Source of the DNA: Candidatus Saccharimonadota bacterium
Lineage (GTDB): Bacteria; Patescibacteriota; Saccharimonadia; Saccharimonadales; UBA10212
DNA length: 64,000 nucleotides
Direction of reading: 5' to 3'
NCBI GenBank assembly: GCA_016176605.1
Contig: JACOWW010000002.1
Coordinates: forward strand, 64,846 to 128,845
Shown: positions 3,461 to 56,118 of the stretch, in pieces
Layout: every line of letters starts with the position of its first letter
Numbering within the stretch: position 1 is the first letter of the stretch
Notes under the pieces: generated by a model
The model's input: only the letters and a program-made list of their open reading frames with translations
Databases searched by the model: none
Told to the model about the DNA's origin: nothing
Program-made: the position numbers and the translations under genes

Positions 3461-4229
3461 GGAGCCAAAAGCTAAAAGCCACCCTTCGACTTCGCTCAGG
3501 GCTGGAAAGCTAACAGCTGATCTCGGGGGGCCGGTTCGGGTAATTCTGGCGGCCTTTGGAATATTTCTTGCAAGCCAGTTTATTGCCGTGCTCTTGATAG
3601 GAATCGGTCTGAATTTTGCCGGCGTGCAGCAAAACATAGACCAGTCCGCCGCCGCCCAATTTTTTTATATTTTGCTAGCCGAGGGCGTGGCTATTGGCAG
3701 TATCTATTGGTTGCTCAAGCGGCGGGGGCTTACATTATCTGCCATCGGCCTAGGGCAGAAGCTGGCCTGGCGTGACTTCAAGTGGGCTGCGGCTGGTTTT
3801 TTGGCATTTTACGGCCTGGCGGTGGCCGTGACGGTGCTTTTAACCATATTTATTCCTAGTTTTGACGCGGACCAAGCCCAAGATGTTGGCTTTAATTATT
3901 TATCAACCCCGCTAGATCAAATTATCGCCCTGGTGGCTTTGGTAGCACTGCCATCAATCGGCGAGGAAATACTTATGCGGGGGTATCTCTACTCCGGACT
4001 ACGCCTGCGCATGACCTTTTTTCCGGCGATGATTATAACCAGCCTGCTTTTTGGTGCGGCCCACCTAACTACCGGCGTCAAAGGCGCCCTGTGGGCCGCC
4101 GGTGTATCGACATTTATTTTGTCTGTGGTTTTAGTCTATTTGCGCGAGCGCACTGGCGCGCTATATGCACCGATTATGGTCCACGGGTTTAATAATTTAG
4201 TCGCCTTTTTGGTCCACTTCCACTCCTAG
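3435..4229 (+). CDS. CPBP family intramembrane metalloprotease (N-terminus carries repeat-derived peptide HPSTSLRAGKL)
   Basis: EEILMRGYLYSGLR and GAAHLTTG motifs. Confidence 0.85.
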   Translation: MSMSADFSKEPKAKSHPSTSLRAGKLTADLGGPVRVILAAFGIFLASQFIAVLLIGIGLNFAGVQQNIDQSAAAQFFYILLAEGVAIGSIYWLLKRRGLTLSAIGLGQKLAWRDFKWAAAGFLAFYGLAVAVTVLLTIFIPSFDADQAQDVGFNYLSTPLDQIIALVALVALPSIGEEILMRGYLYSGLRLRMTFFPAMIITSLLFGAAHLTTGVKGALWAAGVSTFILSVVLVYLRERTGALYAPIMVHGFNNLVAFLVHFHS

Positions 4230-4398
4230 ACTTTGCACCGCGATTAGCCTGCCAGCCAGCGAAGCTGCCAGCATCGCTAATCGCTTGTGGCGCATTACTT
4301 CGTTAGAGCCTCCGCTACTCGTTCTCTGTATTTTCCTATACAGTTCGCTTCGTTGCTCGGCTCTTCCTTGTACTGCATCCACATGCAAAGCCTAGGAG
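4223..4398 (-). ncRNA. SR-A structured element, copy A
   Basis: Closing stem CTCCTAGaCTTTGCA (4223-4237)/TGCAAAGcCTAGGAG (4384-4398); conserved core shared with four other loci. Confidence 0.6.
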
Positions 4399-6734: not shown

Positions 6735-6830
6735 AAGCAACTAGAAACTAGGAATTAGTAACTAGGTACGAAAAATCATCGTGATATTTTTATACTAGTT
6801 TCTATTTACTAATTACTATTTACTAGTAGT
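6735..6830. repeat. Inverted pair of degenerate TAGTAAN heptamer arrays
   Basis: AACTAGAAACTAGGAATTAGTAACTAG ... CTAGTTTCTATTTACTAATTACTATTTACTAG. Confidence 0.8.
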
Positions 6831-8345
6831 ATGAAGTGGCTGAATAAAATCGCCGATGAGGTAATTACCAGGCACCCTAAAGGTGAAATATTAGTTTCTT
6901 CCGGCGCATCACCGTCAGGCAGCTATCATATTGGCCACCTGCGCGAAATTATCATCTGTGACGCCATAAAAAGGGAACTTCAAAATAGGGACAGACAGGC
7001 TAAACACCTGCACTATGTCGATGATCTCGACGGCCTGCGAAAAACTCCTGTGGACATTCCGGCTGAGCATGAAAAATATCTCGGACAATCTCTTTGTGAT
7101 ATACCGGCTCCAGGCGGCAAAGGTTCATATGCCGACTATTTTTTTGACAGCTTTTTGCGTAGCGCCAAAGCCCTCGGCGTCGATATGGAAGTCATCCGCA
7201 GCCACGAAAAATACCGCGCCGGTTTTTTTACTGATGCCATTGAAAAGTCACTGGCCAAAGCTCTCGAAGCCAAAAAAATACTAGAAACGGTTTCGGGGCG
7301 GAAACTAGGCAAAGAATGGTCGCCGATCCAGGTAAATGAAGGCGGCTATTTAAAAAAAAGAGCTTTCCAGTCAATCGACACAAACGCCAAAACCATAACT
7401 TATTTTGATAAAGATGGCGCGAAAAAAACGACTAGCTATCAAAAGGGCGAAGTCAAACTCGATTGGCGAATTGACTGGCCGGCGCGCTGGTGGTTACTGG
7501 GCGTTGATGTGGAGCCTTTTGGCCGCGACCATGCTTCGGCCGGCGGCAGTTACGACACTGGCGAAGCGCTAGTTAGAGAAATTTTCGGTGGCCAGGCTCC
7601 GCTGCCGGTACCCTATGATTTTGTAAACCGGGCCGGCGACACTAAAAAAATGAGCGCCAGTCAAGGTACCGGCCTAAGCGCAGCTGAGGTTGTCGATGTC
7701 TTACCGCCCGAAATAGTTCGTTTCTTTATGTTGCGCTTTCCGCCGGAGAAACGTTTATATTTTGACAGCGAAAAAGGCGTAGCCCAATTGATTGATGATT
7801 TTGCCGAACTGATGCAAAAAGAACCCGATTCAAAAGTTATCAGTCTTTCCCAAGCCGGATCTGCGCCAGTGATAAGCAGCGTGCCTTTTTCGCACCTGGT
7901 TGGCAGTTATCAAGCATCCTTGCGCGATAGCGAAAAAACGATTGAAGTGATTAAGCGTACAGAACATGCCGATGTGGCCGGCGCCCAAGCAGGCATTATT
8001 AAAAAAGAACTGGCTTATATTGATAACTGGCTGGATAAGTGGGCGCCGGAAGATATTAAATTTGAACTAAGAAAAAAAATTAATAAAGATGATTTTTCGG
8101 CAAAGCAACAAAAGTTTCTAAAAGCATTAGCAGAGAAAATAGCTGCCGTGCCAGCTAATGCCGATGGCGATTGGTTTCACAAAACCATTTACGACCTTAA
8201 AGACACTGTCGGTATGGAGCCTAAAGCCATGTTCGAAACGCTTTATAGAGCCCTCATTGGTAAAACTAGCGGCCCGCGGGCTGGCTGGTTTCTCTCCATC
8301 TTACCCCGCGACTGGCTTATGAAAAGATTAAAATTAGAAGGTTGA
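6831..8345 (+). CDS. lysS: Class I lysyl-tRNA synthetase (archaeal type)
   Basis: SGSYHIGHLRE (HIGH), KMSAS; class I LysRS layout. Confidence 0.93.
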   Translation: MKWLNKIADEVITRHPKGEILVSSGASPSGSYHIGHLREIIICDAIKRELQNRDRQAKHLHYVDDLDGLRKTPVDIPAEHEKYLGQSLCDIPAPGGKGSYADYFFDSFLRSAKALGVDMEVIRSHEKYRAGFFTDAIEKSLAKALEAKKILETVSGRKLGKEWSPIQVNEGGYLKKRAFQSIDTNAKTITYFDKDGAKKTTSYQKGEVKLDWRIDWPARWWLLGVDVEPFGRDHASAGGSYDTGEALVREIFGGQAPLPVPYDFVNRAGDTKKMSASQGTGLSAAEVVDVLPPEIVRFFMLRFPPEKRLYFDSEKGVAQLIDDFAELMQKEPDSKVISLSQAGSAPVISSVPFSHLVGSYQASLRDSEKTIEVIKRTEHADVAGAQAGIIKKELAYIDNWLDKWAPEDIKFELRKKINKDDFSAKQQKFLKALAEKIAAVPANADGDWFHKTIYDLKDTVGMEPKAMFETLYRALIGKTSGPRAGWFLSILPRDWLMKRLKLEG

Positions 8346-10059: not shown

Positions 10060-10692
10060 ATGAGTTCTAACGGGATGGATAAACAGTTGCGGGCAATTTT
10101 ACAAAAAAACTCGCTGCAGGCGGCCCCGCTGCTATTGGGGTGGACATTAGTTCGCCAAACTCAGGCAGGAACAATAAAATTACGCATTGTTGAAACGGAG
10201 GCCTATCATCAAGATGACCCGGCCAGCCACAGTTTCCGCGGCCCAACAATCCGTACGGCGCCGATGTTTCAAGCCGGCGGCCGGCTGTATATTTATTTCA
10301 CTTACGGCAGGCATTTTTGCCTGAATATTGTAACTGGCGCACGGGGCAGGGGTGAGGCTGTTTTGATCCGAGTCGCTGAGCCAATCGAAGGAATTGAAAT
10401 CATAATAAAGAACCGTTTTGGAAATGTGAAAGGTCCGTCCTTTCACAACTTGGCGAATGGGCCTGGAAAGTTAACACAAGCGCTGGGCATAAAAGACACC
10501 AGCCTGTCGGGGAAAAAGCTTGACTTGTCAAGTATTTTCCTCGAGCCGCCACAAAAACCGGTCAAAGCCCAAGAGATTGTCGCCAGCTCCCGGATTGGCA
10601 TTCGCCAAGCTACCGAAATGCCCTGGCGCTTTTATATAAAAAACAACCCTTGTGTTTCAAAACATCCCAAAGCCCGTCACTTAGGATTATAA
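10060..10692 (+). CDS. 3-methyladenine DNA glycosylase (AAG/MPG family); start re-assigned from 10000
   Basis: VETEAYHQDDPASHSFRGPT, LNIVTGARGRGEAVLIRVAEP, LANGPGKLTQALGI; SD GGAGG at 10051. Confidence 0.88.
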   Translation: MSSNGMDKQLRAILQKNSLQAAPLLLGWTLVRQTQAGTIKLRIVETEAYHQDDPASHSFRGPTIRTAPMFQAGGRLYIYFTYGRHFCLNIVTGARGRGEAVLIRVAEPIEGIEIIIKNRFGNVKGPSFHNLANGPGKLTQALGIKDTSLSGKKLDLSSIFLEPPQKPVKAQEIVASSRIGIRQATEMPWRFYIKNNPCVSKHPKARHLGL

Positions 10693-13195: not shown

Positions 13196-13357
13196 ATGGG
13201 GGAGATTGCTATTTTGGCGGCGGGGTGTTTCTGGGGCGATCGGCGGCTTCGCCTTATGAGACAAACTACGTTTTTCTCATCGCGCCGGGCACGAAATGAA
13301 TTCGGTGCTCGGGCTGCTCTTTTCCTAGTTTGTAGTAAACTGGACATCGGTGTATGA
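13196..13357 (+). CDS. 53-aa upstream ORF with MsrA-like N-terminus continuing through SR-B element
   Basis: MGEIAILAAGCFWGDRRLRLMRQTT...; stop TGA overlaps msrA ATG (ATGA). Confidence 0.5.
   Translation: MGEIAILAAGCFWGDRRLRLMRQTTFFSSRRARNEFGARAALFLVCSKLDIGV
13244..13325 (+). repeat. SR-B double-hairpin element, copy 1
   Basis: H1 ATGAGAcAAAC/GTTTtTCTCAT; H2 CCGGGCAC/GTGCTCGG. Confidence 0.75.
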
Positions 13358-15975: not shown

Positions 15976-16134
15976 ATGGCATATCATAGATGGCGCAGTC
16001 CACCTTACGAACCTGGGCAAAAAACACCTTATAAGCGGCTTCGCCTTATAAGACACCCCTTTGGGGTTTCTCATCGCGCCGGGCGCGGAATAAATCCGAC
16101 GCTCGGGTTGCTCTTCCCGAGGAGCTGCTTGTGA
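15976..16134 (+). CDS. 52-aa upstream ORF mimicking the N-terminus of the downstream nuclease and continuing through SR-B
   Basis: MAYHRWRSPPYEPGQKTPYKRLRL...; stop TGA overlaps GTG start (GTGA); TAAAAT 7 nt upstream. Confidence 0.5.
   Translation: MAYHRWRSPPYEPGQKTPYKRLRLIRHPFGVSHRAGRGINPTLGLLFPRSCL
16035..16116 (+). repeat. SR-B double-hairpin element, copy 2
   Basis: H1 around ACCCC ttt GGGGT; H2 CCGGGCG/CGCTCGG. Confidence 0.75.
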
Positions 16135-19329: not shown

Positions 19330-21954
19330 TTGTTCAAATTTAAACTAAGCACTAAGCCGCTGAAGCGTGTCCTGGGCGATCCCCAGGCATCAACTATCAA
19401 ACGCCTAAAAAAGCGCGTTAAAGAAGTTAACGCGCTAGCCGATAAGTATAAAAAAATGACCGACGCCAAGCTCAAGGGCCAAACAGCGGAGTTTAAGAAA
19501 AGGCTGGAAAAAGGCGCAACCCTCGACAAAATTTTGCCAGAGGCATATGCAGCAGTGCGCGAAGCGGCCACCCGTACGCTTAAACAGCGCCACTTCGATG
19601 TCCAGCTAATTGGCGGCATGGTTTTGCACGAGGGCGGCGTGTCCGAAATGAAGACTGGCGAAGGCAAAACCCTGGTTGCCACCCTGCCCATTTATTTAAA
19701 TGCTTTAGAGGGCCAGGGCGCCCATGTGGTAACGGTCAACGATTATTTGGCTCAGCGCGACGCCGGCTGGATGGGCCAGATTTATCATTTTTTGGGTCTC
19801 AGCGTCGGTGTTATTATCCCCGACGAATCCTATGTTTATGACCCGAGTTATGAAAATAAAGAACACTTTGACGAACGTTTTCGTCACTTACGTCCAGCCA
19901 CCCGCCAGGAAGCTTACCAAGCTGACGTGACGTATGGGACAAACAACGAATTTGGCTTTGACTACCTGCGCGATAACATGGTGCGCGAAACCGACCAGCT
20001 GCGCCAGCGTGAGCTACACTACGGTATCGTCGACGAAGTTGACTCTATACTAATTGACGAAGCCCGTACGCCGCTGATTATCAGCGCGCCGTCGGCCGCC
20101 AGTGGCGCTGCTTATGACCAGTTCGCCCGCGTGGTGCGTCAGCTTAAAGAAACCGAGCACTTTGAAAAGGACGAAAAACGCCGCAGTGTAGTTTTGACCG
20201 ACGCCGGCGTGGAATTTGTTGAAAAAATCTTGGGCATCCAAGGTCTGTATTCAACCGAAAACCTGCGTACCATCTACCATCTTGAACAAGCCCTAAAGGC
20301 CCAGGCACTTTTCCACCGCGACAAAGATTACGTCGTCACCCGCGAGGGCGAAATCGTCATCGTCGATGACTTTACCGGCCGGCTGTTGCGTGGTCGCCGT
20401 TATAACGAGGGCCTGCACCAGGCCATTGAAGCCAAAGAAGGGGTTGAAGTCCAAGAAGAGAGCATGACTCTGGCCACCATATCCTTCCAAAACTACTTCC
20501 GTTTGTATAAAAAACTAGCCGGAATGACCGGTACAGCCATGACCGAAAGCGAGGAATTTCACCAGATTTATAAACTTAACGTGGTAGAAATCCCGACCAA
20601 CCGGCCGATGGTGCGCGAAGACCTGCCCGACCGTATTTATAAATCCGAAGCCGGCAAGATGCGGGCCATCACCCGTGAAGTCGCTGCTTTGCAAAAGCGC
20701 GGCCAGCCAATTTTGATTGGCACCGTTAGCGTCGAAAAGAACGAACTTTTAAGCTCACTGCTTAAAAAGAGTAAAATTCCGCACGAAGTCTTAAATGCCA
20801 AGAATAACGAGCGCGAAGCGGCGATAGTCGCCAAAGCCGGCCAAAAGGGCGCCGTTACGCTGGCCACTAACATCGCCGGCCGCGGTACTGATATTGTGCT
20901 GGGCCAAGGAGTGGTTAAGCTTGGCGGCCTGTTCGTCCTTGGCAGTGAACGCCATGAATCGCGCCGCATTGATAACCAATTGCGCGGCCGCACCGGCCGC
21001 CAGGGCGATCCGGGCATGACCCAGTTTTATGTATCCTGCCAAGACGATCTAATGCGTATTTACGGCGGCGAGCGCATTGCTTCAATCATGGACCGGCTCA
21101 AGGTTGATGAAGACACACCTATCGAAAGCCGCATGATTAGCAAAAGCTTGGAAGGCGCCCAGAAAAAAGTCGAAGGCTTTAACTTTGACGCCCGCAAAAA
21201 CGTCGTCCAGTACGACGACGTCATGAACCGGCACCGCCGGGCGACCTACGCCTTGCGGCGCGAAGTCTTGCGGGCGCAGGACATCAGCGTCCGGATTAAG
21301 AAATTCATTTCCGAAGAAGCCGGATTCTTGGCCAACCATCCAGACTCACTAAGCGAACATTTCGAAGCTATCCTGACCGAAACATTTCCGCTTGACGAGA
21401 AAACACTCGATAAACTTTTTGACACCGATGCCAGCCAGTTCGAAGCCGCGCTGGACCAAGCCGCCAGCAAGCTTTATAAAAAACAAGAAAGAGTTTTTGG
21501 CGCGGAAATCATGCGCAAAGTCGAGCGCGACGTATATCTGCAGATTCTTGATAATCTTTGGATGCAGCACCTGGAAAATATGGACCATCTGCGCGAAGGG
21601 ATCCATTGGATGAGTGTCGGCCAGCGCGACCCGTTGGTGGAATATCGCCGCCAAGGCGGCCTGTTGTTTGACGAAATGCAGACAGACTTGCGCCACGAAA
21701 TCGTCAGGGCAATTATGCACGCCCAGCCGCTGGAGTCCCAACTAGAGGAAACTGTCGAAACCGACCTGACGCGGGCGGCCGGCCGCTCCGTCGACAATGC
21801 TACACAAATCAGCCACGCCGAAACTTTTGAGGAATCGGACTTTTCTGCGTCAAAGGACGAAAAGGTGGCTCAGGCCCGTTTGCATAACCAGCGCAAAAAA
21901 GCCCGCAAGGCCGAGCGCCAGCGCAAAAAAACGGCTAAACGCCGTAGAAAATAG
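19330..21954 (+). CDS. secA: Preprotein translocase SecA (TTG start)
   Basis: EMKTGEGKTLVATLP, VDEVDSILIDEARTPLIISAP, RGRTGRQGDPG. Confidence 0.98.
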   Translation: MFKFKLSTKPLKRVLGDPQASTIKRLKKRVKEVNALADKYKKMTDAKLKGQTAEFKKRLEKGATLDKILPEAYAAVREAATRTLKQRHFDVQLIGGMVLHEGGVSEMKTGEGKTLVATLPIYLNALEGQGAHVVTVNDYLAQRDAGWMGQIYHFLGLSVGVIIPDESYVYDPSYENKEHFDERFRHLRPATRQEAYQADVTYGTNNEFGFDYLRDNMVRETDQLRQRELHYGIVDEVDSILIDEARTPLIISAPSAASGAAYDQFARVVRQLKETEHFEKDEKRRSVVLTDAGVEFVEKILGIQGLYSTENLRTIYHLEQALKAQALFHRDKDYVVTREGEIVIVDDFTGRLLRGRRYNEGLHQAIEAKEGVEVQEESMTLATISFQNYFRLYKKLAGMTGTAMTESEEFHQIYKLNVVEIPTNRPMVREDLPDRIYKSEAGKMRAITREVAALQKRGQPILIGTVSVEKNELLSSLLKKSKIPHEVLNAKNNEREAAIVAKAGQKGAVTLATNIAGRGTDIVLGQGVVKLGGLFVLGSERHESRRIDNQLRGRTGRQGDPGMTQFYVSCQDDLMRIYGGERIASIMDRLKVDEDTPIESRMISKSLEGAQKKVEGFNFDARKNVVQYDDVMNRHRRATYALRREVLRAQDISVRIKKFISEEAGFLANHPDSLSEHFEAILTETFPLDEKTLDKLFDTDASQFEAALDQAASKLYKKQERVFGAEIMRKVERDVYLQILDNLWMQHLENMDHLREGIHWMSVGQRDPLVEYRRQGGLLFDEMQTDLRHEIVRAIMHAQPLESQLEETVETDLTRAAGRSVDNATQISHAETFEESDFSASKDEKVAQARLHNQRKKARKAERQRKKTAKRRRK

Positions 21955-22052
21955 TAACTAGGAAATAGGAACTAGTATGAGCTATAATCTAAATCTACCA
22001 AGTATCAATAAGCCAGCTAATTTCTATTTACTAATTTCTAATTACTATTTTT
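21955..22052. repeat. Inverted pair of TAGTAAN-type heptamer arrays
   Basis: TAGTAACTAGGAAATAGGAACTAG ... CTATTTACTAATTTCTAATTACTA. Confidence 0.75.
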
Positions 22053-23336
22053 ATGAAGCATAGCGTCGCAGAGGTTCAGTTAAAAAACGGTGCGCGAGGC
22101 CTGCTAATTGATGTTCCCGGCGCGTCAGTGACTAGCTATGAACTTAATTTTAGGGCTGGTGAGTTTTTGATGCCGCGCAGTAAATGGGAAACACCGCACA
22201 TTTTGGAGCACATGGTTTCAGCCGGTGCCAACGAGCGATATCCCGACCGCAATCTTTTTAATGCCGAGATGAGTAAAAATGGTGCCTACATCAATGCCTA
22301 CACCAGTTATTACTCGGTGGCCTATGTTGGCGAGGTTGCCGATTTTGAGTGGGAGCGCGTTATGCGGCTGCAGCAGCTATCGCTAGCCAAGCCGCTGTTT
22401 TTGCAGGCCGAATTTAATGCCGAGTTTGGCAATATACATGATGAATTAATCAGTTTATCTAATAACCATTTTCGGGCGCTGTCGGGCAAAATGAGCCAAG
22501 CCTTTGGCTTCAAAATTGCTACGGATTTTGAGCGTTCAAAACTTATGAACAATGTTGTTCGAGAAGATTTACTGAAACATTATAAGCGCACACATTTTAC
22601 CCGCAACCTGCGCTTCATCATTGCCGGCAGTCTGCGCGGCCGCCGCACTTCAGTTAAACGTTTGCTGGAAGAACTCGATCTGCCAACTGGCTCATCACGC
22701 TTAAGGCTGCCGAAAGAAAGTGCTAGCAAACCGAGAGGGCCGACATTTGTCGCCAACGAAACGGTGCCAAATATATATTTAACTATCAGCACACATTTCA
22801 ACGACATCATCGGCCAAAAAGATGATGACGCGCTGGGGCTAGCCCGCATCATGCTGACAGAGACGTTATATTCCAAGATATTTGGACAGGCACGCGACAA
22901 AGGACTGGTTTACCACGTTAGCTCCGGGCACCATATTTCTTCAAAGGTGACAGAGTGGTGGCTAAGCGCCCAGGTACTGCCGGATAATGCGCTGGCCCTA
23001 GCCGACATCGTACTGGCCGAGATTAAAAAAGTCCAAAACGCCGTTATGGATGAAGCCGAACTGGAAAACACCAAGCAATACGCACTGGGCTCCTTCCAGC
23101 GCTCGCTGCAGACCGTGCAAAATGTGTCTAATGCTTACTCGCGCTACTTTTTTGATGGCTATATTGAGGACATGCGCTTCATACCGGTACGAATCCGCGC
23201 CATCACCAAGCGTGACATTGCCCGCGCAATGCGCAAACTGTTTGCCGAAAATTTGGGCGGAGTAGGGGTGCTGGGCGGCACCGACCCCAAAATTGCCGAA
23301 AAACTAAACGAACATTTGCAGCCACTCTGGAAGTAG
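22053..23336 (+). CDS. M16 family zinc peptidase
   Basis: HILEHMVSAGANERYPDRN (HXXEH), NAEFGNIHDEL. Confidence 0.88.
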   Translation: MKHSVAEVQLKNGARGLLIDVPGASVTSYELNFRAGEFLMPRSKWETPHILEHMVSAGANERYPDRNLFNAEMSKNGAYINAYTSYYSVAYVGEVADFEWERVMRLQQLSLAKPLFLQAEFNAEFGNIHDELISLSNNHFRALSGKMSQAFGFKIATDFERSKLMNNVVREDLLKHYKRTHFTRNLRFIIAGSLRGRRTSVKRLLEELDLPTGSSRLRLPKESASKPRGPTFVANETVPNIYLTISTHFNDIIGQKDDDALGLARIMLTETLYSKIFGQARDKGLVYHVSSGHHISSKVTEWWLSAQVLPDNALALADIVLAEIKKVQNAVMDEAELENTKQYALGSFQRSLQTVQNVSNAYSRYFFDGYIEDMRFIPVRIRAITKRDIARAMRKLFAENLGGVGVLGGTDPKIAEKLNEHLQPLWK

Positions 23337-24432: not shown

Positions 24433-25536
24433 ATGGATAATCTTAAAAAACGGGTTGATGCGCTTCAAAATGAGGTTAAGAAAACAGCCGAAAAGATTAG
24501 TTTGGACCAGCTTGAGGTTGAACAAAAAAATTTACTGGCGCAGATGCAGAAATCGGATTTTTGGCAAGATGCCCAAAAAGCCCAGGAGATAAGTAAGCGC
24601 GAAGCAGCCCTTAATTCCAGGGTGGCACCCTGGAAAGAATTGCAAAAAGAAGTTGACGATTTGCTTGAGCTTGTCAATATTGGCGACACCAAGATAACAG
24701 AGGAACTCGAGGAGCAACTCTCCACTCTTAACTCTCAACTCTCAGCTCTTATGCGCGATTTGCGCTTTAGCGGTCCGTTTGACGACCACGACGTAATTTT
24801 AAGCATATACGCTGGCGCTGGCGGCACTGACGCCCAAGATTGGGCACAGATGCTGCTGCGAATGTACTTAAGATGGGCTGAGAGCCACCCTTCGACTTCG
24901 CTCAGGGCAGGAAAGCTTAAGGTTGAGGTTTTGGAGCAAAGCAGCGGCGAGGAGGCTGGAATAAAAAGCGCGACTGTAAAAATCAGTGGTGGAGATTTTT
25001 TGTACGGTAAGCTGGCCGGCGAACACGGTGTGCATCGATTAGTTCGTTTAAGCCCGTTCAATGCCGACCATTTGCGCCAAACCAGTTTTGCTAAAGTCGA
25101 AGTTATGCCGGCGATTGATAAGCCAAGCGAAGTCCAGCTTGATGAAAAAGATTTAAAAATTGATGTTTTTCGCGCCGGCGGCCATGGCGGCCAATCGATC
25201 AATACCACAGATTCAGCCGTTCGTGTGACCCACATTCCAACCGGCATCACGACGTCTATCCAAAACGAGCGCTCGCAGCTGCAAAATAAAGAAACAGCGC
25301 TTGGAATTTTGCGCTCAAAACTTATTCAACTGCAGCTAGAACAACATGCCGAGAACCTGAGCCAGCTCAAGGGGCCCAGCCAATCGGCGCAGTGGGGCAA
25401 CCAAATCCGCAGCTACGTCCTGCATCCCTATAAACAAGTCAAAGACAACCGCACTGGTTTTGAGTCTACCGAACCCGACAAAATCCTCGACGGTAACCTC
25501 GACCCCCTCATTGACGCCTGTCTCGAAAAGCTATAG
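24433..25536 (+). CDS. prfB: Peptide chain release factor 2 (no programmed frameshift; inserted HPSTSLRAG)
   Basis: GAGGTDAQDWAQMLLRMYLRWAE, SPFNADHLRQTSF, RAGGHGGQSINTTDSAVR. Confidence 0.95.
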   Translation: MDNLKKRVDALQNEVKKTAEKISLDQLEVEQKNLLAQMQKSDFWQDAQKAQEISKREAALNSRVAPWKELQKEVDDLLELVNIGDTKITEELEEQLSTLNSQLSALMRDLRFSGPFDDHDVILSIYAGAGGTDAQDWAQMLLRMYLRWAESHPSTSLRAGKLKVEVLEQSSGEEAGIKSATVKISGGDFLYGKLAGEHGVHRLVRLSPFNADHLRQTSFAKVEVMPAIDKPSEVQLDEKDLKIDVFRAGGHGGQSINTTDSAVRVTHIPTGITTSIQNERSQLQNKETALGILRSKLIQLQLEQHAENLSQLKGPSQSAQWGNQIRSYVLHPYKQVKDNRTGFESTEPDKILDGNLDPLIDACLEKL

Positions 25537-25560: not shown

Positions 25561-25739
25561 TTCAGGGCTAACGCATTTGGATGCAGAAGGCTATTTCTCC
25601 TTGAGGAGCGGACTGAGGCGTATACAGAAATACGTCAAAGGAGTACCGCAGAGGAAAATAGTTCTGATGCGCCAAAAGCCGCCGCGGCGCAGCCCCGACT
25701 GGTCGGGGCTGGCAGGTGGTGGCGATGCGGAGGCCTGAA
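25561..25739 (+). ncRNA. SR-A structured element, copy B, in the 5' UTR of ftsE
   Basis: Closing stem TTCAGG..CGCAT / ATGCG gagg CCTGAA flanks the SD; core shared with other copies. Confidence 0.65.
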
Positions 25740-26420
25740 ATGATTTTACTCGACAGAGTAACAAAAACTTATGGTAGCAATGAGCCGGCGCTGGAACGTG
25801 TCAGCTTGCATGTTGAGCCTAAGGAATTTGTAATTATCGTTGGCCAAAGCGGCGCTGGTAAATCCACTTTATTCAAACTGCTGACCAGGGAAGAAAAGCC
25901 CACCTCCGGCAAGATAATTGTTGGTGGTATGGACTACGATAAGTTGCGGGACAAGGACATCCCGCTGCTGAGGCGCAAAATCGGCGTGGTTTTCCAGGAT
26001 TTTAAATTGCTGCCAGCCAGAAACGTTTATGAAAACGTCGCCTTTGCGCTGGAAATTGCCGGTTTGCCAACCACCGAAATTAAACACACTATACCGAAGG
26101 TTTTGGACGTGGTAGGTCTAGGCGGTAAAGAAAAAAACTACCCGCGCGAACTATCCGGTGGTGAAAAACAGCGCGTGGCTATTGCTCGGGCGATTGTCCG
26201 CCAGCCAAAAATCTTGATTGCTGATGAACCGACCGGCAACCTGGACCTTAAGCATGCCTGGGATGTTATAAAAGTGCTAGAAAAAATCAACCAATTTGGC
26301 ACCACCGTACTGCTAACGACCCATAATCAGGAAATCGTCAATTATCTAAAGCGCCGGGTAGTAACCATTAAAGACGGCAAAATCGTGTCCGACCACGCAG
26401 TAGGGAAATACAAAATATGA
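25740..26420 (+). CDS. ftsE: Cell division ATP-binding protein FtsE (start re-assigned from 25716)
   Basis: [43 protein letters not shown]; followed by ftsX. Confidence 0.93.
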
Positions 26421-26568: not shown

Positions 26569-27540
26569 ATGAGATTGAAAAAGAAGGCCGAGCCGGCACT
26601 GAAACAGGACCATAAGTTTGTAACGCTTGAGCGTATTGTTAGAAACGGTTTTGTTAATTTTGGCCGCAACATTTGGCTGGCTATTGCCGCCATCGCCATG
26701 ATGGGAATCACGCTGACCATACTGCTTTTTGCGGTTGTCGCTAATGCCACTTTTAGCCACACTATTTCTGATATCACCAGCCATATCGACGTATCCGTGT
26801 ATTTGAAAGATGATGTTACTGATGGGCAGCGTACCAATCTGATTGAAAACCTAAAGGGCATTGAAAATGTGCAGGCTGTGGCGTACATCTCCAAAGAACA
26901 GGCTCTAAAAAATTATCGGGCTCAAAATATCAATAACAAAGAGCTGCAGGCCGCCATTTCGGAAACCGACAACCCTCTGCCGGCGTCGCTGGTTATCTCG
27001 CCCAAAGACCCCAATAAGCTGGAGACTATAAAAGAGTACCTGGATAAACCGGAAATTTCGTCCCTGCAGTCTGATCCCACTAGTTATAGTGGCGACCGGA
27101 AGGCCGCCATCGATAAGATAGCCAAAGCCACAGACTTTTTCCGCCAAGCCGGTATTGTCGGAATTATCATATTTATAATCATTTCGATACTCATTATTTT
27201 TAATACTATCCGTATGACAATTTTTAATCGGCGTGATGAACTGGTAATCATGCGCCTGCTGGGGGCTACCCCTGGCTATATCCGCGGGCCGTTCATCGTA
27301 GAGACTATGCTTTACGGTGTGGTAGCGGCTGCTATATCTTTAGCTATCAGCGGTGCCTTGTTCGCCGTAGCCAGCTCGACATTGCAGGCCAGCGCCCTAG
27401 GTCTCTTAGACATCAAATACTCTGGCGAGTACTTTAAGAAAAACTTATGGCTAATTTTGACTACTCAAATCCTCGCCGGTATAATAATCGGAGCCGCCAG
27501 TTCCGCCGTTGCTGCCAGGCGGTACCTGAAACTCAAATAG
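26569..27540 (+). CDS. ftsX: Cell division protein FtsX
   Basis: Four TM segments; FNTIRMTIFNRRDELVIMRLLGATPGYIRGPFIVE. Confidence 0.93.
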   Translation: MRLKKKAEPALKQDHKFVTLERIVRNGFVNFGRNIWLAIAAIAMMGITLTILLFAVVANATFSHTISDITSHIDVSVYLKDDVTDGQRTNLIENLKGIENVQAVAYISKEQALKNYRAQNINNKELQAAISETDNPLPASLVISPKDPNKLETIKEYLDKPEISSLQSDPTSYSGDRKAAIDKIAKATDFFRQAGIVGIIIFIIISILIIFNTIRMTIFNRRDELVIMRLLGATPGYIRGPFIVETMLYGVVAAAISLAISGALFAVASSTLQASALGLLDIKYSGEYFKKNLWLILTTQILAGIIIGAASSAVAARRYLKLK

Positions 27541-27625
27541 AAACTAGTAAATAGTAACTAGTAATTAGTAAATAGAAACTAGCAAAAAGGGATTAATATT
27601 TTCTAACGCCTAGTTGCTAGTTGCT
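27541..27625. repeat. TAGTAAN heptamer array
   Basis: CTAGTAAATAGTAACTAGTAATTAGTAAATAGAAACTAG. Confidence 0.8.
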
Positions 27626-27656
27626 TGACGGAGGTGCTATTATTGGTAAAGCTTTT

Positions 27657-30288: not shown

Positions 30289-31902
30289 GTGGCGGTAAAT
30301 GCCAAGCAGACTAAATATATATTTGTGATCGGCGGTGTCTTGTCAGGGGTAGGCAAAGGTATTACCGCTGCCTCCATTGGCAACATCTTAAAAGCCCGCG
30401 GCCTGTCTATAAACATCCAAAAGTACGACCCATATCTGAATGTTGATGCCGGTTTGCTAAACCCCCGGGAGCACGGTGAGATTTTTGTTACCAAAGACGG
30501 CGCCGAAACTGACCTGGACGTCGGCCATTACGAGCGTTTCTTGGATGAAGATTTAACCCAGTCTAGCAGCTTAATGAGCGGCCGGGTACTGCTAAAAGTA
30601 ATTCAAGACGAAAGGGCAGGCAAGTATCAAGGTGAAGATGTTCAGATAATTCCACATCTAACAGCTGCCATACAGGATTTTATAAGTGAGGCCGGCAAGG
30701 GATTTGATGTCCACATTGTCGAAGTTGGCGGCACGGTTGGCGATATTGAAAGCCTTAGTTTCTTGGAAGCCATCCGCGAGATGAACCTCAGGCTCGGCCG
30801 GGATGACTGCCTGTTTGTCCAGGTTGTATACTTACCGTATCTAGGTACCAGCGGCGAATATAAAACCAAACCGGCCCAAAACGCCGTACGCGGACTGTTG
30901 AGCCTGGGTATTGCACCCGACATTTTAATAGCCCGCTCGGAAAGTAAACCCCCGGCGCGGGCGGTTATACCCAAACTTAGCCTGTTTAGCGGCGTTGAAC
31001 AAAGAGCGATAGTCCTGATACCTAATGCGCCAACTATTTATCAGGTACCGCTGACACTGGAAGACGCTAAAATTGCCGATTTTATTACCGAACGTTTGAG
31101 TTTGCGCAGCCACAAACCGGATATGAATAGCTGGAAAAGAGTGGTCAAAAACGCATTGACGCGTTACCGCAGAACAGTAAGCATCGGCGTGATTGCAAAA
31201 TACACCGATAACCAGGATACCTACTATTGTGTCTTCGAAGCTTTACGGACAGCGGCTTGGGACCAGCAAGTAAATGTTGATATCGTCTGGGTCAATGCCG
31301 AAAATTTGCTTCGCGACAAAAAAGAGCAGGCTAAAATGCAAGCGGTTGACGCCATAGTTGTCCCCGGCGGCTTCGGCAGGCGCGGTCTGGAGGGTAAGAT
31401 ATACGCTGCGGGCTACGCCCTCACGAACAAGATTCCCTATTTAGGGCTTTGTTTAGGGCTGCAAATGGCCGTTATTGCCGCCGCCCGTTGGGCCGGATTA
31501 AAAGGGGCTACTTCCGTTGAGCTGGACGAAGACAGTCCGCACAAAGTCATTGATTACATGGCCGACCAAAAGGATAAAGCCAACACTGGCGGTAGCATGC
31601 GCTTAGGCGATTATCCTTGTGTTCTGGAAAGGGGCACTTTAGCGCGTAAAATTTACGGTCAAGAAAAAATTGTTGAACGCCACCGCCACCGTTGTGAGTG
31701 TGCTAACGCTTACCGCGACCAGTATGAAGGTTGGGGCATCAAAGCCAGCGGCACCAGCCCCGACGGGCATCTTGTAGAAGTCATTGAAGCTATTGATCAC
31801 CCATACTTCATTGCCACTCAAGCCCATCCAGAGCTTCTCTCCCGCCCAACCCGTCCACACCCCCTATTCGTCGGCCTCATCAAAGCCGTCCTCAATAAGT
31901 AA
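30289..31902 (+). CDS. pyrG: CTP synthase
   Basis: KYIFVIGGVLSGVGKGITAASIG; glutaminase PYLGLCLGLQMAVIAAAR. Confidence 0.97.
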   Translation: MAVNAKQTKYIFVIGGVLSGVGKGITAASIGNILKARGLSINIQKYDPYLNVDAGLLNPREHGEIFVTKDGAETDLDVGHYERFLDEDLTQSSSLMSGRVLLKVIQDERAGKYQGEDVQIIPHLTAAIQDFISEAGKGFDVHIVEVGGTVGDIESLSFLEAIREMNLRLGRDDCLFVQVVYLPYLGTSGEYKTKPAQNAVRGLLSLGIAPDILIARSESKPPARAVIPKLSLFSGVEQRAIVLIPNAPTIYQVPLTLEDAKIADFITERLSLRSHKPDMNSWKRVVKNALTRYRRTVSIGVIAKYTDNQDTYYCVFEALRTAAWDQQVNVDIVWVNAENLLRDKKEQAKMQAVDAIVVPGGFGRRGLEGKIYAAGYALTNKIPYLGLCLGLQMAVIAAARWAGLKGATSVELDEDSPHKVIDYMADQKDKANTGGSMRLGDYPCVLERGTLARKIYGQEKIVERHRHRCECANAYRDQYEGWGIKASGTSPDGHLVEVIEAIDHPYFIATQAHPELLSRPTRPHPLFVGLIKAVLNK

Positions 31903-31907
31903 TGATC

Positions 31908-32088
31908 CGTCGAAAACAAAACGGCTGCGCTTGAGCGCAGTACAAGGAAGAGTTGAGCAGCGGACTGAGGCGTATATGTAATACGATGAAGGAGCAGCGT
32001 AAATTCTGACGCAGTAATGTGCCAAGAGCACCAGCGGAGCTGCTAGCTTGGCTAGCAGGTAGGTTGGTGCGGCGCAGTCGTTTTATTC
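31908..32088 (+). ncRNA. SR-A structured element, copy C, between convergent pyrG and rpmA
   Basis: CGTCGAA..AAAACGgCTGCGC / GCGCAGtCGTTTTATTCGACG closing stem; conserved core. Confidence 0.65.
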
Positions 32089-32355
32089 GACGGTGACTTC
32101 GGTGCGGGGTATACTGCGGCCGCTAAACTTTTTGAATTTTCGGTCGTTGAATTTGACCACACCGTCTTTGGCGGCATGGATTGTGTAGTTTCGGCTCATG
32201 AACGTGCCGGTACCGGCTCTCTTGGTCATGCCGATTTGGCGGACAATTACATCACCAGTCTTAACACTTTGGCCGCCAAAGACTTTAACGCCCAACCGCT
32301 GGCCGGGACTATCGTGTACATTTTTGGCTGTACCGCCTGCTTTAGTCTTACTCAT
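32083..32355 (-). CDS. rpmA: 50S ribosomal protein L27 (start re-assigned)
   Basis: MSKTKAGGTAKNVHDSPGQRLGVKVFGGQSVKTGDVIVRQ. Confidence 0.95.
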   Translation of the reverse strand: MSKTKAGGTAKNVHDSPGQRLGVKVFGGQSVKTGDVIVRQIGMTKRAGTGTFMSRNYTIHAAKDGVVKFNDRKFKKFSGRSIPRTEVTVE

Positions 32356-32522
32356 TTGAACCTCTTGCCAGCCAGCCTGCTTGCCTGCGGAGCACGCAAC
32401 TCCGCTGGCTTCTCGGCGCACTACTGCGTCAAAAGCTCCGTTGCTCGTTCACCCCGACGGTACGTCGGGACTCACTCCGCTACTCGCTCTTTCCTTGTAT
32501 TACATCCGAGCAAGAGGCTCAA
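32356..32522 (-). ncRNA. SR-A structured element, copy D, 5' UTR of rpmA
   Basis: Closing stem TTGAgCCTCTTGC/GCAAGAGGtTCAA includes the GAGG SD of rpmA; conserved core. Confidence 0.65.
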
Positions 32523-32534
32523 ATGGCTGGATTG

Positions 32535-33854
32535 TTAACGTTTCTCTAATATCAAAAGTTCGCGGGCGACGATTTGGTCTTCGCGGAAATAGACTAGCTC
32601 ATCGTTTTTAACATGGACGAAATCTACCCGATTATACCCGAGAGAAGTTAAATTATCAACCCATTCGACTTTTTTGCTCAGGGTTGATGCTGAGCGGCGC
32701 GTAGCGCCGTCGAACGCATCAAGCAGCGGCAGTCTGTGAAAGGTCCGTCCTTTCACATTGCGCCAGGCCGGTACGGCTAACGCAACTTTTTGGCCGGCTC
32801 TCAGTTGCGGCGCCAGGTTTTGCAGGAATTTCTTGATGATCGTATTTACGTCATTAACTATTTCTTTTAGTTTGTCAGATGGTGGCAGGGAATTAAGTGG
32901 CCGGCCAAGATACACTTCGCTGGCCACTGCACTGAAACGCGGCCACTGGTAGTTTGTGGCATCACCTTGTTCGATAACCACATGGCCCTCTATTCGCGGA
33001 TATTTCTTAAATAGCCATTGGATATTCACCTTAGAATATTCGACCATCCTGGGTTCAATGTCGGTGCCAACGACGTGATAGCCCATCAAAAGTGCCTCTT
33101 GTAATATCACTCCCGTCCCAGCGAAGGGGTCGAGAATCCTTATTGGTCTGGGTTTACTGTTTACTGTTTTCTGCTTTCTGTTTTCTGGCGAGCTCAAATT
33201 TATCAAAATTTGAGCGAGCTTCGGCGGCAGCATGCCGACCCTTGCATCCCGCTTTGGCCGCACTTGGTCACGTGCCGCGTAAGCTTCAATATCCTGAACA
33301 AAAAATGTCTGCGCTAGATATGTTTGCCTGCCGTGGCGCAGCACTAGCAACTCCCAAGCGCCTCGCTTAGTTAAATTATTGTATAGCACCTGCGCGGTGT
33401 TCAGCTGGAGTGTTTTATTCGGGACGATACGGGCTGGCCGGCCTTGGCTGCGAATAATTTTTTTAAGCGACAGCAAATCGGTGTTCAATTTTTTTACACT
33501 CAGATCAAGGCCATAAACGCTAACCCCTAAAGTAAATTTTCCGCCGCGCTGGTTCTGCAAATGCTTTGGGATATTTTCCGCTAAATATTCATAGGCCGAT
33601 TCCCAATTAGAGGAGGGAAGAACGCTAAGCAGCTGCGCGACTTTTAGCGTGCCGCCGAGCTTTTTAAAATTAATTTCACCGGCTGGAGTGTCCAACAGGG
33701 CGGCATTAGCCAGTGGCTTAACATGCTCAGCGCCATACAAACTCTCCAGCTCGGCCAGCCCCAAAGCCGGCTGGCGCCCCAAAATACAAAGGCTCTTGGC
33801 TTCAAACTCGTTCATCTTATAAAAGTATAACTGAGAGTCGCTCGCACCATGCAT
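32535..33854 (-). CDS. TRM11-like/THUMP-type RNA or DNA methyltransferase (true start probably near 33814)
   Basis: RILDPFAGTGVILQEALLMGYHVVGTDIEPRMVEYSKVN. Confidence 0.8.
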   Translation of the reverse strand: MHGASDSQLYFYKMNEFEAKSLCILGRQPALGLAELESLYGAEHVKPLANAALLDTPAGEINFKKLGGTLKVAQLLSVLPSSNWESAYEYLAENIPKHLQNQRGGKFTLGVSVYGLDLSVKKLNTDLLSLKKIIRSQGRPARIVPNKTLQLNTAQVLYNNLTKRGAWELLVLRHGRQTYLAQTFFVQDIEAYAARDQVRPKRDARVGMLPPKLAQILINLSSPENRKQKTVNSKPRPIRILDPFAGTGVILQEALLMGYHVVGTDIEPRMVEYSKVNIQWLFKKYPRIEGHVVIEQGDATNYQWPRFSAVASEVYLGRPLNSLPPSDKLKEIVNDVNTIIKKFLQNLAPQLRAGQKVALAVPAWRNVKGRTFHRLPLLDAFDGATRRSASTLSKKVEWVDNLTSLGYNRVDFVHVKNDELVYFREDQIVARELLILEKR

Positions 33855-37819: not shown

Positions 37820-37899
37820 AAGGTCCAACCTTGGATAAAACAAAGAGTTTTTAGTAAAAACGACTACGTTTTACCTATTTTTATCCAAGGTTAGACCTT
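37820..37899. repeat. 21-bp inverted repeat (AAGGTC family)
   Basis: AAGGTCCAACCTTGGATAAAA / TTTTATCCAAGGTTAGACCTT (20/21). Confidence 0.85.
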
Positions 37900-38696: not shown

Positions 38697-38799
38697 AAAT
38701 GCTGCGGATTAAGCAAATAGTAATTAGCAATCAGAAATTAGCAAAAATGCTTGTTCCTAGTTCCTATTTCCTACTTTCTGCTCCTGAAAGGAGCTTCTA

Positions 38800-39186
38800 G
38801 TGGCTCGCATATTATTTATTGAGCCGGATCGCATATTGGGCGCCAACGCCAAAAGGATTATGAAGCGGGCAGGGCACGGCGTTGATTGGCACGTCGACCC
38901 GCAGGCAGCCATGGATAGCGCGGATTCGATTCGGCCGGATATCGTTATCCTAGACTTGATGCTTGCCAGCCGTTCCGGCGTGGAGTTTTTGTACGAATTC
39001 CGCAGCTACCCGGAGTGGTCGGAGGTGCCTGTTATAATTTATAGCAGTGTCCCAGCCGAAGAGTTTAACGCCGACTATATCGGCTTTAACCAGTTGGATA
39101 TCGCCGCCTACCACTACAAACCGGCGGCCACGATTGCCGAACTCTTACGATCCGTCGACCGTATCTTGCAGCCAGTTTCACGATGA
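38800..39186 (+). CDS. Stand-alone response regulator receiver domain
   Basis: RILFIEPD, IVILDLMLASRSG, HYKPA. Confidence 0.85.
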   Translation: MARILFIEPDRILGANAKRIMKRAGHGVDWHVDPQAAMDSADSIRPDIVILDLMLASRSGVEFLYEFRSYPEWSEVPVIIYSSVPAEEFNADYIGFNQLDIAAYHYKPAATIAELLRSVDRILQPVSR

Positions 39187-39887
39187 AACATCGTCAATTC
39201 ACTACAAAAGGCATAATCCTGGCCCGGACAGACTTCGGTGAAGCTGATCGTATCTTAACTTTCCTGACGCCGGACCATGGAAAGGTGCAGGCTATCGCTA
39301 AAAGCGTGCGCAAAAGTCAAAGTAAATTAGCTGGCGGCATCGAATTATTTTCTGTCAGTGACCTGACGTTGATTGTTGGACGCGGCGAAATCAACACGCT
39401 TATTTCTTCGCGGCTAGTTAGACACTGCGGAAATATCGTCAAAGACCTTGGGCGCACCAAGCTGGCCTACGAATTCCTAAGGGTTATAAACAAGGCCACC
39501 GAGGACAAACCAGAAGAGGCTTACTTTAAACTGCTGGGCGGGAGCCTAGAAGCGCTCGATGATCTGGAGCTCGAGCCAGAACTAACAGCGCTTTGGTTCG
39601 ACATGCAGCTTTTGAAGCTAGCCGGCCATATGCCTAACTTACGCACCGATTCTTACGGCGCCAAGCTGACGAAGGTAAAATCGTATAGTATTGATTTGGA
39701 AAAAATGCGCTTCGAACCCCGCCCGCAAGGAACCGGTTCATTTACTGCGAATGATATTAAATTTTTGCGTCTCGGTTTTAGTGCGTCTAAACCTCAGACT
39801 ATTCATAGAATAAATGGCGCGGACAAAGTAGCTGTTGTCTGCCAGCCCCTTATCCAAACCATGCTCAAATCCCACGTTCGCACATAA
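39183..39887 (+). CDS. recO: DNA repair protein RecO
   Basis: TTKGIILARTDFGEADRILTFLTPDHGKVQAIAKSVRKS. Confidence 0.9.
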   Translation: MKHRQFTTKGIILARTDFGEADRILTFLTPDHGKVQAIAKSVRKSQSKLAGGIELFSVSDLTLIVGRGEINTLISSRLVRHCGNIVKDLGRTKLAYEFLRVINKATEDKPEEAYFKLLGGSLEALDDLELEPELTALWFDMQLLKLAGHMPNLRTDSYGAKLTKVKSYSIDLEKMRFEPRPQGTGSFTANDIKFLRLGFSASKPQTIHRINGADKVAVVCQPLIQTMLKSHVRT

Positions 39888-40162: not shown

Positions 40163-40287
40163 GTTTATTTTCTTTCAATCTTACAATATGTTTCATTATA
40201 TCACTTATGCATTGCTAATGCAAGGCAAAAATAGCCGTAATTTACTAAAACGTTTATAATCTGTGCTTAAGATGATTAAAGTAGGAA

Positions 40288-40456
40288 CGAAACGCTTGCA
40301 TTTGGATTTAGAAGCTGTTTTCTTGGCGAGCAACGGAGTGAGACGTACGGGAAGGTACGTTGAATGAGTAGCGCAGACAAAAAACAACTTATGGACCAAA
40401 GGGCTGGCGGGTTTCAGGCTCCGCCTGGGAGCAGGTCAGCCGGTGCAAGTATTTCG
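40288..40456 (+). ncRNA. SR-A structured element, copy E, upstream of/overlapping the annotated 5' end of glyS
   Basis: CGAAAcgCTTGCA (40288-40300)/TGCAAGtaTTTCG (40444-40456); ACGTAC/GTACGT hairpin; TATAAT at 40255. Confidence 0.6.
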
Positions 40457-41782
40457 CTTGAGGATATTGTGAGTTTATGTAAGCGGCGGGGCTTTATATA
40501 TCAGGGCAGTGAAATATATGGCGGCCTGGCCGGTACGTGGGATTATGGGCCGCTGGGCGCGCAGCTCAAGCGCAATATCGTTAATGAGTGGCTAAAGTAT
40601 TTTGTCGATGGCTGGGACGACATGTACCTCATCGACACCACGATAATTATGAATCCCAAAGTTTGGGAAGCTAGCGGCCATTTGGATACATTCCATGATC
40701 CGCTGGTGGAGTGCAGCAACTGCCACATGCGTTTCCGCGCCGACAAAGTCGATAAAAACAAGTGCCCAAATTGTGGCAAAGCCAAAACTTTTGGCAAACC
40801 GCGGCGGTTTAACCTGATGTTCAAAACCAATGTCGGCCCGCTGGATGACGAGGATTCGATGGCTTATTTACGGCCGGAAACAGCACAGGGCATGTTTACC
40901 AACTTCAAGAATATTATTGATAGTTTTCATCCGGACCTGCCGTTTGGTGTTGCCCAAGTTGGCCGCAGTTTCCGCAACGAAATTAGCCCGCGTGATTTTA
41001 TCTTCCGCGTCCGTGAGTTTGAAATTATGGAGTTCGAATGGTTCCTTAATGAAAAAGACTGGGAAAAATATTTCGAAAAATGGCGCAAAGACATGAACGC
41101 TTGGTTCAAAAAACTAGGGCTCGATAGTTCGAAAGTTAAAGAACATGAAGTTCCGCCATCAGACCGCGCGCATTACAGCAAACGCACAATTGATTTTTAT
41201 TACGATTTTCCTTCCATTGGTTTTGATGAAATTGCTGGACTGGCTTACCGCACGGATTTTGATCTTAAAAACCACCAAAAAAAGTCCGGTAAGAATTTAG
41301 AGTACCGGCCAAAAGATGGGGGCAAGCCGTTCATCCCGCACGTCATTGAACCGACCTTTGGTCTAGACCGGCATGTCATGGCCGTCATTTCAAACGCCTA
41401 CTCAGAAGACGTGCAGGCTGAGGAGAAACGCATTTTCCTAAAACTGCCGGCCTATTTGGCGCCAGTCAAAGTCGCCGTCTTTCCACTACTTAAAAACAAA
41501 CCGGAGCTGGTCAAAAAAGCCCGCGAAGTTTATGACATGCTAAAGAAGGCAAACCGAGAAGGAATGCCTGGAGCTCGAAGCCTTGGCGAAGTGCTCTGGG
41601 ACGACAACGGCAATATTGGCAAGCGCTACCGCCGCCAAGACGAAATCGGCACTCCTCACACCATCACCATCGACTTCGATACATTAAAGGATGATGCAGT
41701 AACGATTCGTGACAGGGATACAACCAAACAAGAAAGAGTCAAAATAACAGATCTGGTGGGCACTTTAAGTGCCCACCAATGA
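40364..41782 (+). CDS. glyS: Glycyl-tRNA synthetase (start uncertain; GTG 40469 is an alternative)
   Basis: LEDIVSLCKRRGFIYQGSEIYGGLAGTWDYGPLG, PHVIEPTFGLDRHVMAVI. Confidence 0.93.
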   Translation: MSSADKKQLMDQRAGGFQAPPGSRSAGASISLEDIVSLCKRRGFIYQGSEIYGGLAGTWDYGPLGAQLKRNIVNEWLKYFVDGWDDMYLIDTTIIMNPKVWEASGHLDTFHDPLVECSNCHMRFRADKVDKNKCPNCGKAKTFGKPRRFNLMFKTNVGPLDDEDSMAYLRPETAQGMFTNFKNIIDSFHPDLPFGVAQVGRSFRNEISPRDFIFRVREFEIMEFEWFLNEKDWEKYFEKWRKDMNAWFKKLGLDSSKVKEHEVPPSDRAHYSKRTIDFYYDFPSIGFDEIAGLAYRTDFDLKNHQKKSGKNLEYRPKDGGKPFIPHVIEPTFGLDRHVMAVISNAYSEDVQAEEKRIFLKLPAYLAPVKVAVFPLLKNKPELVKKAREVYDMLKKANREGMPGARSLGEVLWDDNGNIGKRYRRQDEIGTPHTITIDFDTLKDDAVTIRDRDTTKQERVKITDLVGTLSAHQ

Positions 41783-56049: not shown

Positions 56050-56118
56050 AAATAGCCCGAGTGTCGGATTCATTCCGCACCCGGCGCGATAAGAAACCGC
56101 GAAGGGGTTTCTTATTTT
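56050..56118 (-). repeat. SR-B double-hairpin element, copy 3
   Basis: H1 ATAAGAAACC/GGTTTCTTAT; H2 CCGGGTG/CACTCGG (reverse strand). Confidence 0.75.

Follow-up and report, generated by a model that had tools for sequence, protein, structure and literature searches.

The tiny genomes of Saccharibacteria and other Patescibacteria carry a dispersed element of about 170 nt that folds like an RNA and lies both in the spacers between genes and within genes. We consider it fairly probable that this is a non-autonomous mobile palindromic element which corresponds, in Patescibacteria, to the Rickettsia palindromic elements and has a sense strand with a conserved fold. The element is absent from Rfam and undescribed: Rfam 15 gave no match to it in the window (the whole 64,000-nt stretch of DNA analysed here) at the gathering threshold, relaxed E-values returned nothing relevant around copies C and D or for three members from other classes, and no description of such an element in Patescibacteria was found in the open-access literature. 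In this respect the Rfam comparison bears out the sequence-only reading of the window, which had recognised no known riboswitch consensus in the family.

Members were sought with a covariance model, R1, built from eight copies of the source genome (including A, C and D, with B and E left out) on a structure written by hand from the folds of individual copies. In the 728-kb, 89%-complete source genome, a relative of Candidatus Saccharibacteria, R1 found 19 copies (E 3e-33 to 5e-14); the five described from the sequence are thus real and were recovered at their places in the window (Table 1), and the family is larger than they suggested. The covariance-model search, a step the same reading had already envisaged, was extended to GTDB species representatives. 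Of 100 relatives, 64 carry the element, with up to 30 copies per genome, and 36 have none; at the level of the class it was detected in 100 of 298 genomes, and at that of the phylum in 36 of 389. Weaker hits in family f36 hint at further relatives of the element in Nanosynbacter. A strict DNA pattern of the element yielded only two matches in the GTDB collection, both in Candidatus Saccharibacteria. Within the window R1 scores the five copies at 87-162 bits, the held-out B and E reaching 87 and 91 bits, and their folds compared with their own shuffles give z values of -7.7 (A), -6.5 (B), -7.7 (C), -6.8 (D) and -3.4 (E). The shared blocks and the helices that differ in sequence yet stay paired were found as described, except that B and E represent a variant without the TACAAGGA block.

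In its common form the element is a three-way junction of a closing stem (P1), a long arm and a second arm (P5/P6); the long arm contains P2 and P3, then short two-pair steps with three tandem-GA-like internal loops between them, and is capped by a GUAU/AUAC hairpin (P4). The second arm, and hence the junction, is present in Saccharibacteria, while two members of other classes in the phylum (L190 and L191) lack it and fold as one long hairpin, so that the long arm is the core. Among 109 distinct copies each of the 49 modelled pairs has changed on both sides. Paired cells amount to 94.8%, compared with 68.1% in shuffles and 24-41% with slid partners, and the covariation score is 0.756, compared with 0.241 in shuffles and at most 0.095 with slid partners; fitting the alignment to the model biases these figures towards the structure, but a hand alignment made before the model already contained the same exchanges. 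The proposal of a structured RNA-like family is therefore upheld in the expanded alignment, and since every pair covaries, the fold belongs with the better-supported ones among bacterial RNA-like families that are still undescribed. Moreover, at pairs without a G-U consensus, non-Watson-Crick cells are G-U in 206 cases and A-C in 93, and copies antisense to both neighbours give 67:27, with 95% of their cells paired. A purely double-stranded DNA palindrome does not explain this preference; hence the sense strand folds in single-stranded form, more likely as RNA, possibly as single-stranded DNA. The strand-specific fold is thus maintained by compensatory change, and the most conserved parts of the element are its internal loops and asymmetric tandem-GA motifs.

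Table 1. Copies of the element in the window, with the cores matched by R1 (positions counted from the first nucleotide of the window).
Copy	Position	Strand	R1 core	Setting
A	4223..4398	-	4232-4389	antisense to both neighbours
B	25561..25740	+	25570-25731	full element with 9-nt outer P1 arms
C	31915..32087	+	31924-32078	between convergent pyrG (30289-31902 +) and rpmA (32083-32340 -)
D	32353..32525	-	32362-32516	between methyltransferase-like gene (32535-33854 -) and rpmA (L27)
E	40286..40458	+	40295-40449	between recO (39183-39887) and class II tRNA synthetase gene

Copy A sits just past the stop codon of a CAAX protease-like gene (3435-4229), that stop being within its P1 arm, and copy B lies in the spacer between a peptide chain release factor gene (24433-25536) and an ABC transporter ATPase gene with its ATG at 25740. 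The 3' P1 arm of copy C overlaps the end of rpmA, and a related genome (G008, locus L042) has a copy at the same place; the site of copy D is also occupied by orthologous copies in G048 and G005. In the case of copy E, the first ATG of the class II tRNA synthetase ORF (40364-41782) falls within the element. Copies C (+) and D (-) bracket rpmA, the gene of ribosomal protein L27, at 31915-32525, and since they flank it on opposite strands, the rpmA transcript would hold D in sense together with the complement of C. Elsewhere, too, copies on opposite strands lie close together in pairs or triplets, ~0.3-0.5 kb apart at most (L002/L015 on contig C2 of G000, L113, L225 and L055).

Three observations together show that the element inserts at new sites: orthologous sites are found empty, copies lie at non-orthologous places, and genes carry in-frame insertions. 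MurE of the source genome is 57 aa longer than its orthologues in six relatives and UvrD is 52 aa longer than in most of nine relatives; the empty MurE and UvrD sites are in same-genus genomes, and same-genus genomes hold copies at non-orthologous places. Der was entered twice, near the C-terminus in the source genome (+58 aa) and, in G048, within the first GTPase domain (+56 aa); the peptide is the same in both cases, and both sites are empty in the 13 other genomes of the alignment. The sequence-only reading had taken the locus-specific P1 as something that simple transposition of a MITE would not leave behind, hinting at a non-mobile element; these empty sites contradict it, as they show that the copies were inserted. 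Pairs of copies within one genome reach at best 82% identity, with a mean of 67% (407 pairs); no near-identical copies occur in one genome, and thus no recent movement was caught.

Insertion into conserved genes (Der, MurE, UvrD, Fpg, UDG and others) is a side of the family that the sequence-only reading had not touched. By a criterion of ORF length and open frame, not annotation, 30 of 117 copies classified with their flanks lie in genes. These copies are in sense and in one reading frame, the gene gaining ~52-58 residues, and the model span is 2 mod 3 in all 30, while the other copies are distributed 33/28/26 over the three classes. As the open-frame selection of the 30 contributes to this result, a cleaner frame test is given by long upstream ORFs that enter a copy in sense: 12 of 13 read through, all in element frame 1, and six of seven ORFs entering antisense stop inside. 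Thus, copies within genes survive only in sense and in one frame, and the gene reads through. In-frame insertions were found in at least 15 different conserved genes; besides Der and UvrD, the interrupted Pfam families comprise Mur ligases, peptidase M1, RarA-like AAA, Fpg, PrmC (in two genomes), UvrC, Dus, TsaD, pseudouridine synthase, UDG, alkyltransferase, S1, S6 and KhpB-like proteins, and in the Pfam-scanned hosts the insert frequently falls within one domain match. LepA (the second copy of L068, and L044) was rejected as a clean in-frame insertion, since L044 has a stop in frame and the L068 frame opens just upstream, and both were counted as N-terminal or leader cases.

No family covered the inserted residues in an NCBIfam scan of five insert-bearing proteins or in Pfam scans of 20. 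In an AlphaFold2 model of Der computed on an alignment (mean pLDDT 70), the insert (residues 391-449) is a disordered stretch (pLDDT ~30) placed between two confident strands of the last domain. The model supports the view that the Der insert is a tolerated loop, and the inserted residues would be made as a disordered loop of the protein, from which tryptic peptides such as TETYR and YDEGAAEPATQR are predicted. A stand-alone peptide encoded by intergenic copies was considered on the basis of frame-1 openness and discarded, as 68 of the 87 other copies have frame-1 stops.

Rickettsia palindromic elements are repeats of 100-150 bp which enter ORFs in frame and are found at the same place in related species (PMC10969869, PMC3767692). 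Like these and the Wolbachia palindromic elements, the element described here is present in many copies in spacers and in conserved genes, which it enters in frame, adding a conserved peptide. It differs from them in belonging to another phylum, in giving no sequence match in the NCBIfam and Pfam scans of the inserts, in its multi-helix junction fold with conserved tandem-GA-like loops, in the matching of P1 to the target flank, and in being conserved above flanking genes whatever its orientation. Compared by description, it works like the Rickettsia elements, and belonging to them is a separate matter. Given that coding palindromes have hitherto been a curiosity of Rickettsia and Wolbachia, Patescibacteria would provide a second, unrelated case, and with up to 30 copies in streamlined genomes of less than 1 megabase, in-frame structured insertions may be a recurrent route of protein change in reduced genomes. 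Annotation would miss the element, its inserts showing up as unusual loops of Der, MurE or UvrD. In the favored reading, the fold would be needed by the element itself, its single-stranded form being recognised by a trans-acting enzyme for spreading.

The closing stem P1 is ~15 bp long and has a sharp end, which brings the whole copy to ~173 nt. In the nine positions beyond the model, pairing is 0.82, 0.73, 0.85, 0.86, 0.80, 0.77, 0.72, 0.59 and 0.51, and at the tenth it falls to 0.33, the background. The outer nine pairs are paired with their own partner at 0.741 (74%) as against 0.453 (45%) after arms were swapped between copies, which confirms that P1 is different yet complementary in each copy. 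The further claim that P1 is built from flanking sequence applies to the 3' arm, often native target, and not to the 5' arm, an inserted complement of that target. Der of G048 illustrates this: codons for the conserved QDFWL segment serve as the 3' arm, opposite an inserted, complementary 5' arm. The same arrangement was found in the methyltransferase beside rpmA in G005, G048 and G056, the homologue of which in the source genome (window 32535-33854) is an empty site. In UDG (L070, L101) and Fpg (L060, L108) the 3' arm is likewise native, and the 5' arms track native codon differences. A rule that the 3' arm is always native was abandoned: it holds for Der of G048, the methyltransferase, UDG and Fpg, but not for MurE and Der of the source genome, where both arms seem mostly inserted. 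In the group of copy D, compensatory changes have kept a locus-specific P1 intact at one site across different families. Two causes fit these data: the target may have templated or guided the 5' arm, matched to the sequence just downstream, during insertion, or the arm may have adapted later under selection for the stem. Outside the core, flank profiles show weak conservation only; the few empty sites reveal no consistent target duplication, and no conserved terminal repeat was seen. A CTAG motif at the ends (13 and 11 of 117, compared with ~4.5 by background) was judged too weak.

The sister species G008 and G013 share the site of seven of 18 copies. Cores at these sites are 86-97% identical (pooled 91%), as opposed to 69-82% in the flanks (70-77% beyond 50 nt), and the core is more conserved than the flanking genes in all seven cases; the 10-25 nt just outside the copies are 85-94% identical. 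This is not expected of a freely decaying selfish element, so that either an ongoing function or recurrent homing is needed, a question raised by same-site conservation above coding flanks; the pattern may reflect strong constraint on each copy or renewal by homing with some co-conversion. A divergent member (L096/L099, core start TCCACAGCTAGCGG) is 97% identical in its core between two sister species, with flanks of ~70%, and ~45 nt upstream of the core are also identical. In G008, one copy (L240, 1501-1715) contains a second, nested insertion of ~60 nt.

The foremost alternative, which we regard as rather unlikely, is a host-beneficial multi-copy noncoding RNA or nucleic-acid scaffold, the folded strand of which, transcribed or exposed, would be useful wherever a copy lies, genes included; the REP-derived nucleoid RNA of E. 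coli offers a comparison. Such a function would account for the G008/G013 copies that surpass their flanking genes in seven of seven cases, for a fold kept equally well in every context and orientation, and for the locus-specific P1 maintained across families in the copy D group. However, the element is dispensable, as relatives hold anything from 30 copies to none, only seven of 18 copies are at a shared site between sister species, and it is hard to understand why a useful RNA should be placed within essential proteins.

UvrD is filled near the same codons in the source genome and G048 with nine nearer relatives empty, which favors recurrent same-site insertion or many losses; such sites may also simply be tolerant loops. 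Possibly, the P1 5' arm is a guide by which the folded RNA pairs with ~9-15 nt of target and homes into the same sites in other genomes. Although we hold this to be unlikely, it would explain why 5' arms track native codons (UDG, Fpg, the methyltransferase), why sites are filled in distant genomes and empty in nearer ones (UvrD, the methyltransferase, perhaps LepA), and why copies at one site differ less from each other than their flanks do, with a slight rise of identity just beyond the copies. If true, RNA-guided mobile elements would include a new class that lacks its own enzyme.

Structured RNAs of mobile elements, the HEARO/OMEGA and retron RNAs, are similar in length to the element and have a locus-dependent end. 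The present element is distinguished from them by having no Rfam match and by the distribution of reverse transcriptase and TnpB: among 100 relatives, reverse transcriptase (PF00078) and the element were not associated (Fisher p = 1.0), while TnpB (PF07282) was absent above the cut-off, so both were set aside as mobilisers. The Y1 transposase gave a weak association (30/34 vs 34/66, Fisher p = 3e-4, uncorrected for phylogeny), and about nine copies lie within ~3 kb of 20 sampled Y1 regions. Given this, and the fact that Y1 enzymes act on single-stranded DNA hairpins, the element could be a DNA-level MITE moved by a REP-associated Y1 transposase, with stems kept complementary by template switching of replication at imperfect palindromes; like the MITEs and REPs moved by RAYT (Y1), it is dispersed, short, foldable and encodes no enzyme. 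We find this quite improbable. Under template switching the internal loops and asymmetric tandem-GA motifs should have been erased, whereas they are the best-conserved parts of the element, and symmetric DNA correction gives no bias such as the more than twofold excess of G-U over A-C. Nor was a Y1 transposase found in the 89%-complete source genome, and nine genomes with 10 or more copies have no Y1 family. Moreover, the Y1 genes carry their own 23-nt repeats as flanks; the REPs here are separate palindromes beside Y1 genes.

Short palindromes of the GTGAAAGG..CCTTTCAC / AAGGTC..GACCTT type occur in the window at 10423-10447, 32735-32759 and 37820-37899; since the Y1 genes of relatives have similar 23-nt palindromes on their flanks (L196, L199, L209), they resemble REP repeats belonging to these enzymes. 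The palindrome at 32735 falls within the loop of the methyltransferase where three other genomes have the main element.

An intron excised from the mRNA, or a translational bypass element, is a very unlikely reading: a strong fold joins both insertion boundaries in a stem and some insertions are in essential enzymes, but a removed segment needs neither the one open frame nor the 2 mod 3 span kept by in-gene copies, and the inserts lie where the protein can accept a loop. In spacers, copies occur in either orientation (27 sense vs 26 antisense copies where the neighbours are co-directional), often directly past stop codons; 17 copies lie in convergent spacers vs 6 in divergent ones. In 28 copies the stop codon of the convergent neighbour is at -12 to 0 of the 3' end of the element, within the P1 arm. 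A cis-acting regulatory RNA of neighbouring genes (leader, riboswitch, terminator or mRNA stabiliser) is likewise very unlikely, since sense and antisense copies are equally frequent in co-directional spacers and fold equally well, which argues against a riboswitch or leader, and the neighbouring genes are unrelated to one another, even though 5' leaders contain some of the copies, such as copy D ahead of rpmA, a case conserved in three families, and convergent spacers prevail over divergent ones.

The window also contains another dispersed repeat of 43-60 nt (TTTCTCATCGCGCCGGGC...), with copies 81-88% alike at 13273-13321, 16048-16107 and 56054-56115, and intergenic arrays rich in TAGTAACTAG-like units in both orientations at 6735-6836, 21945-22058, 27531-27630 and 38711-38791.
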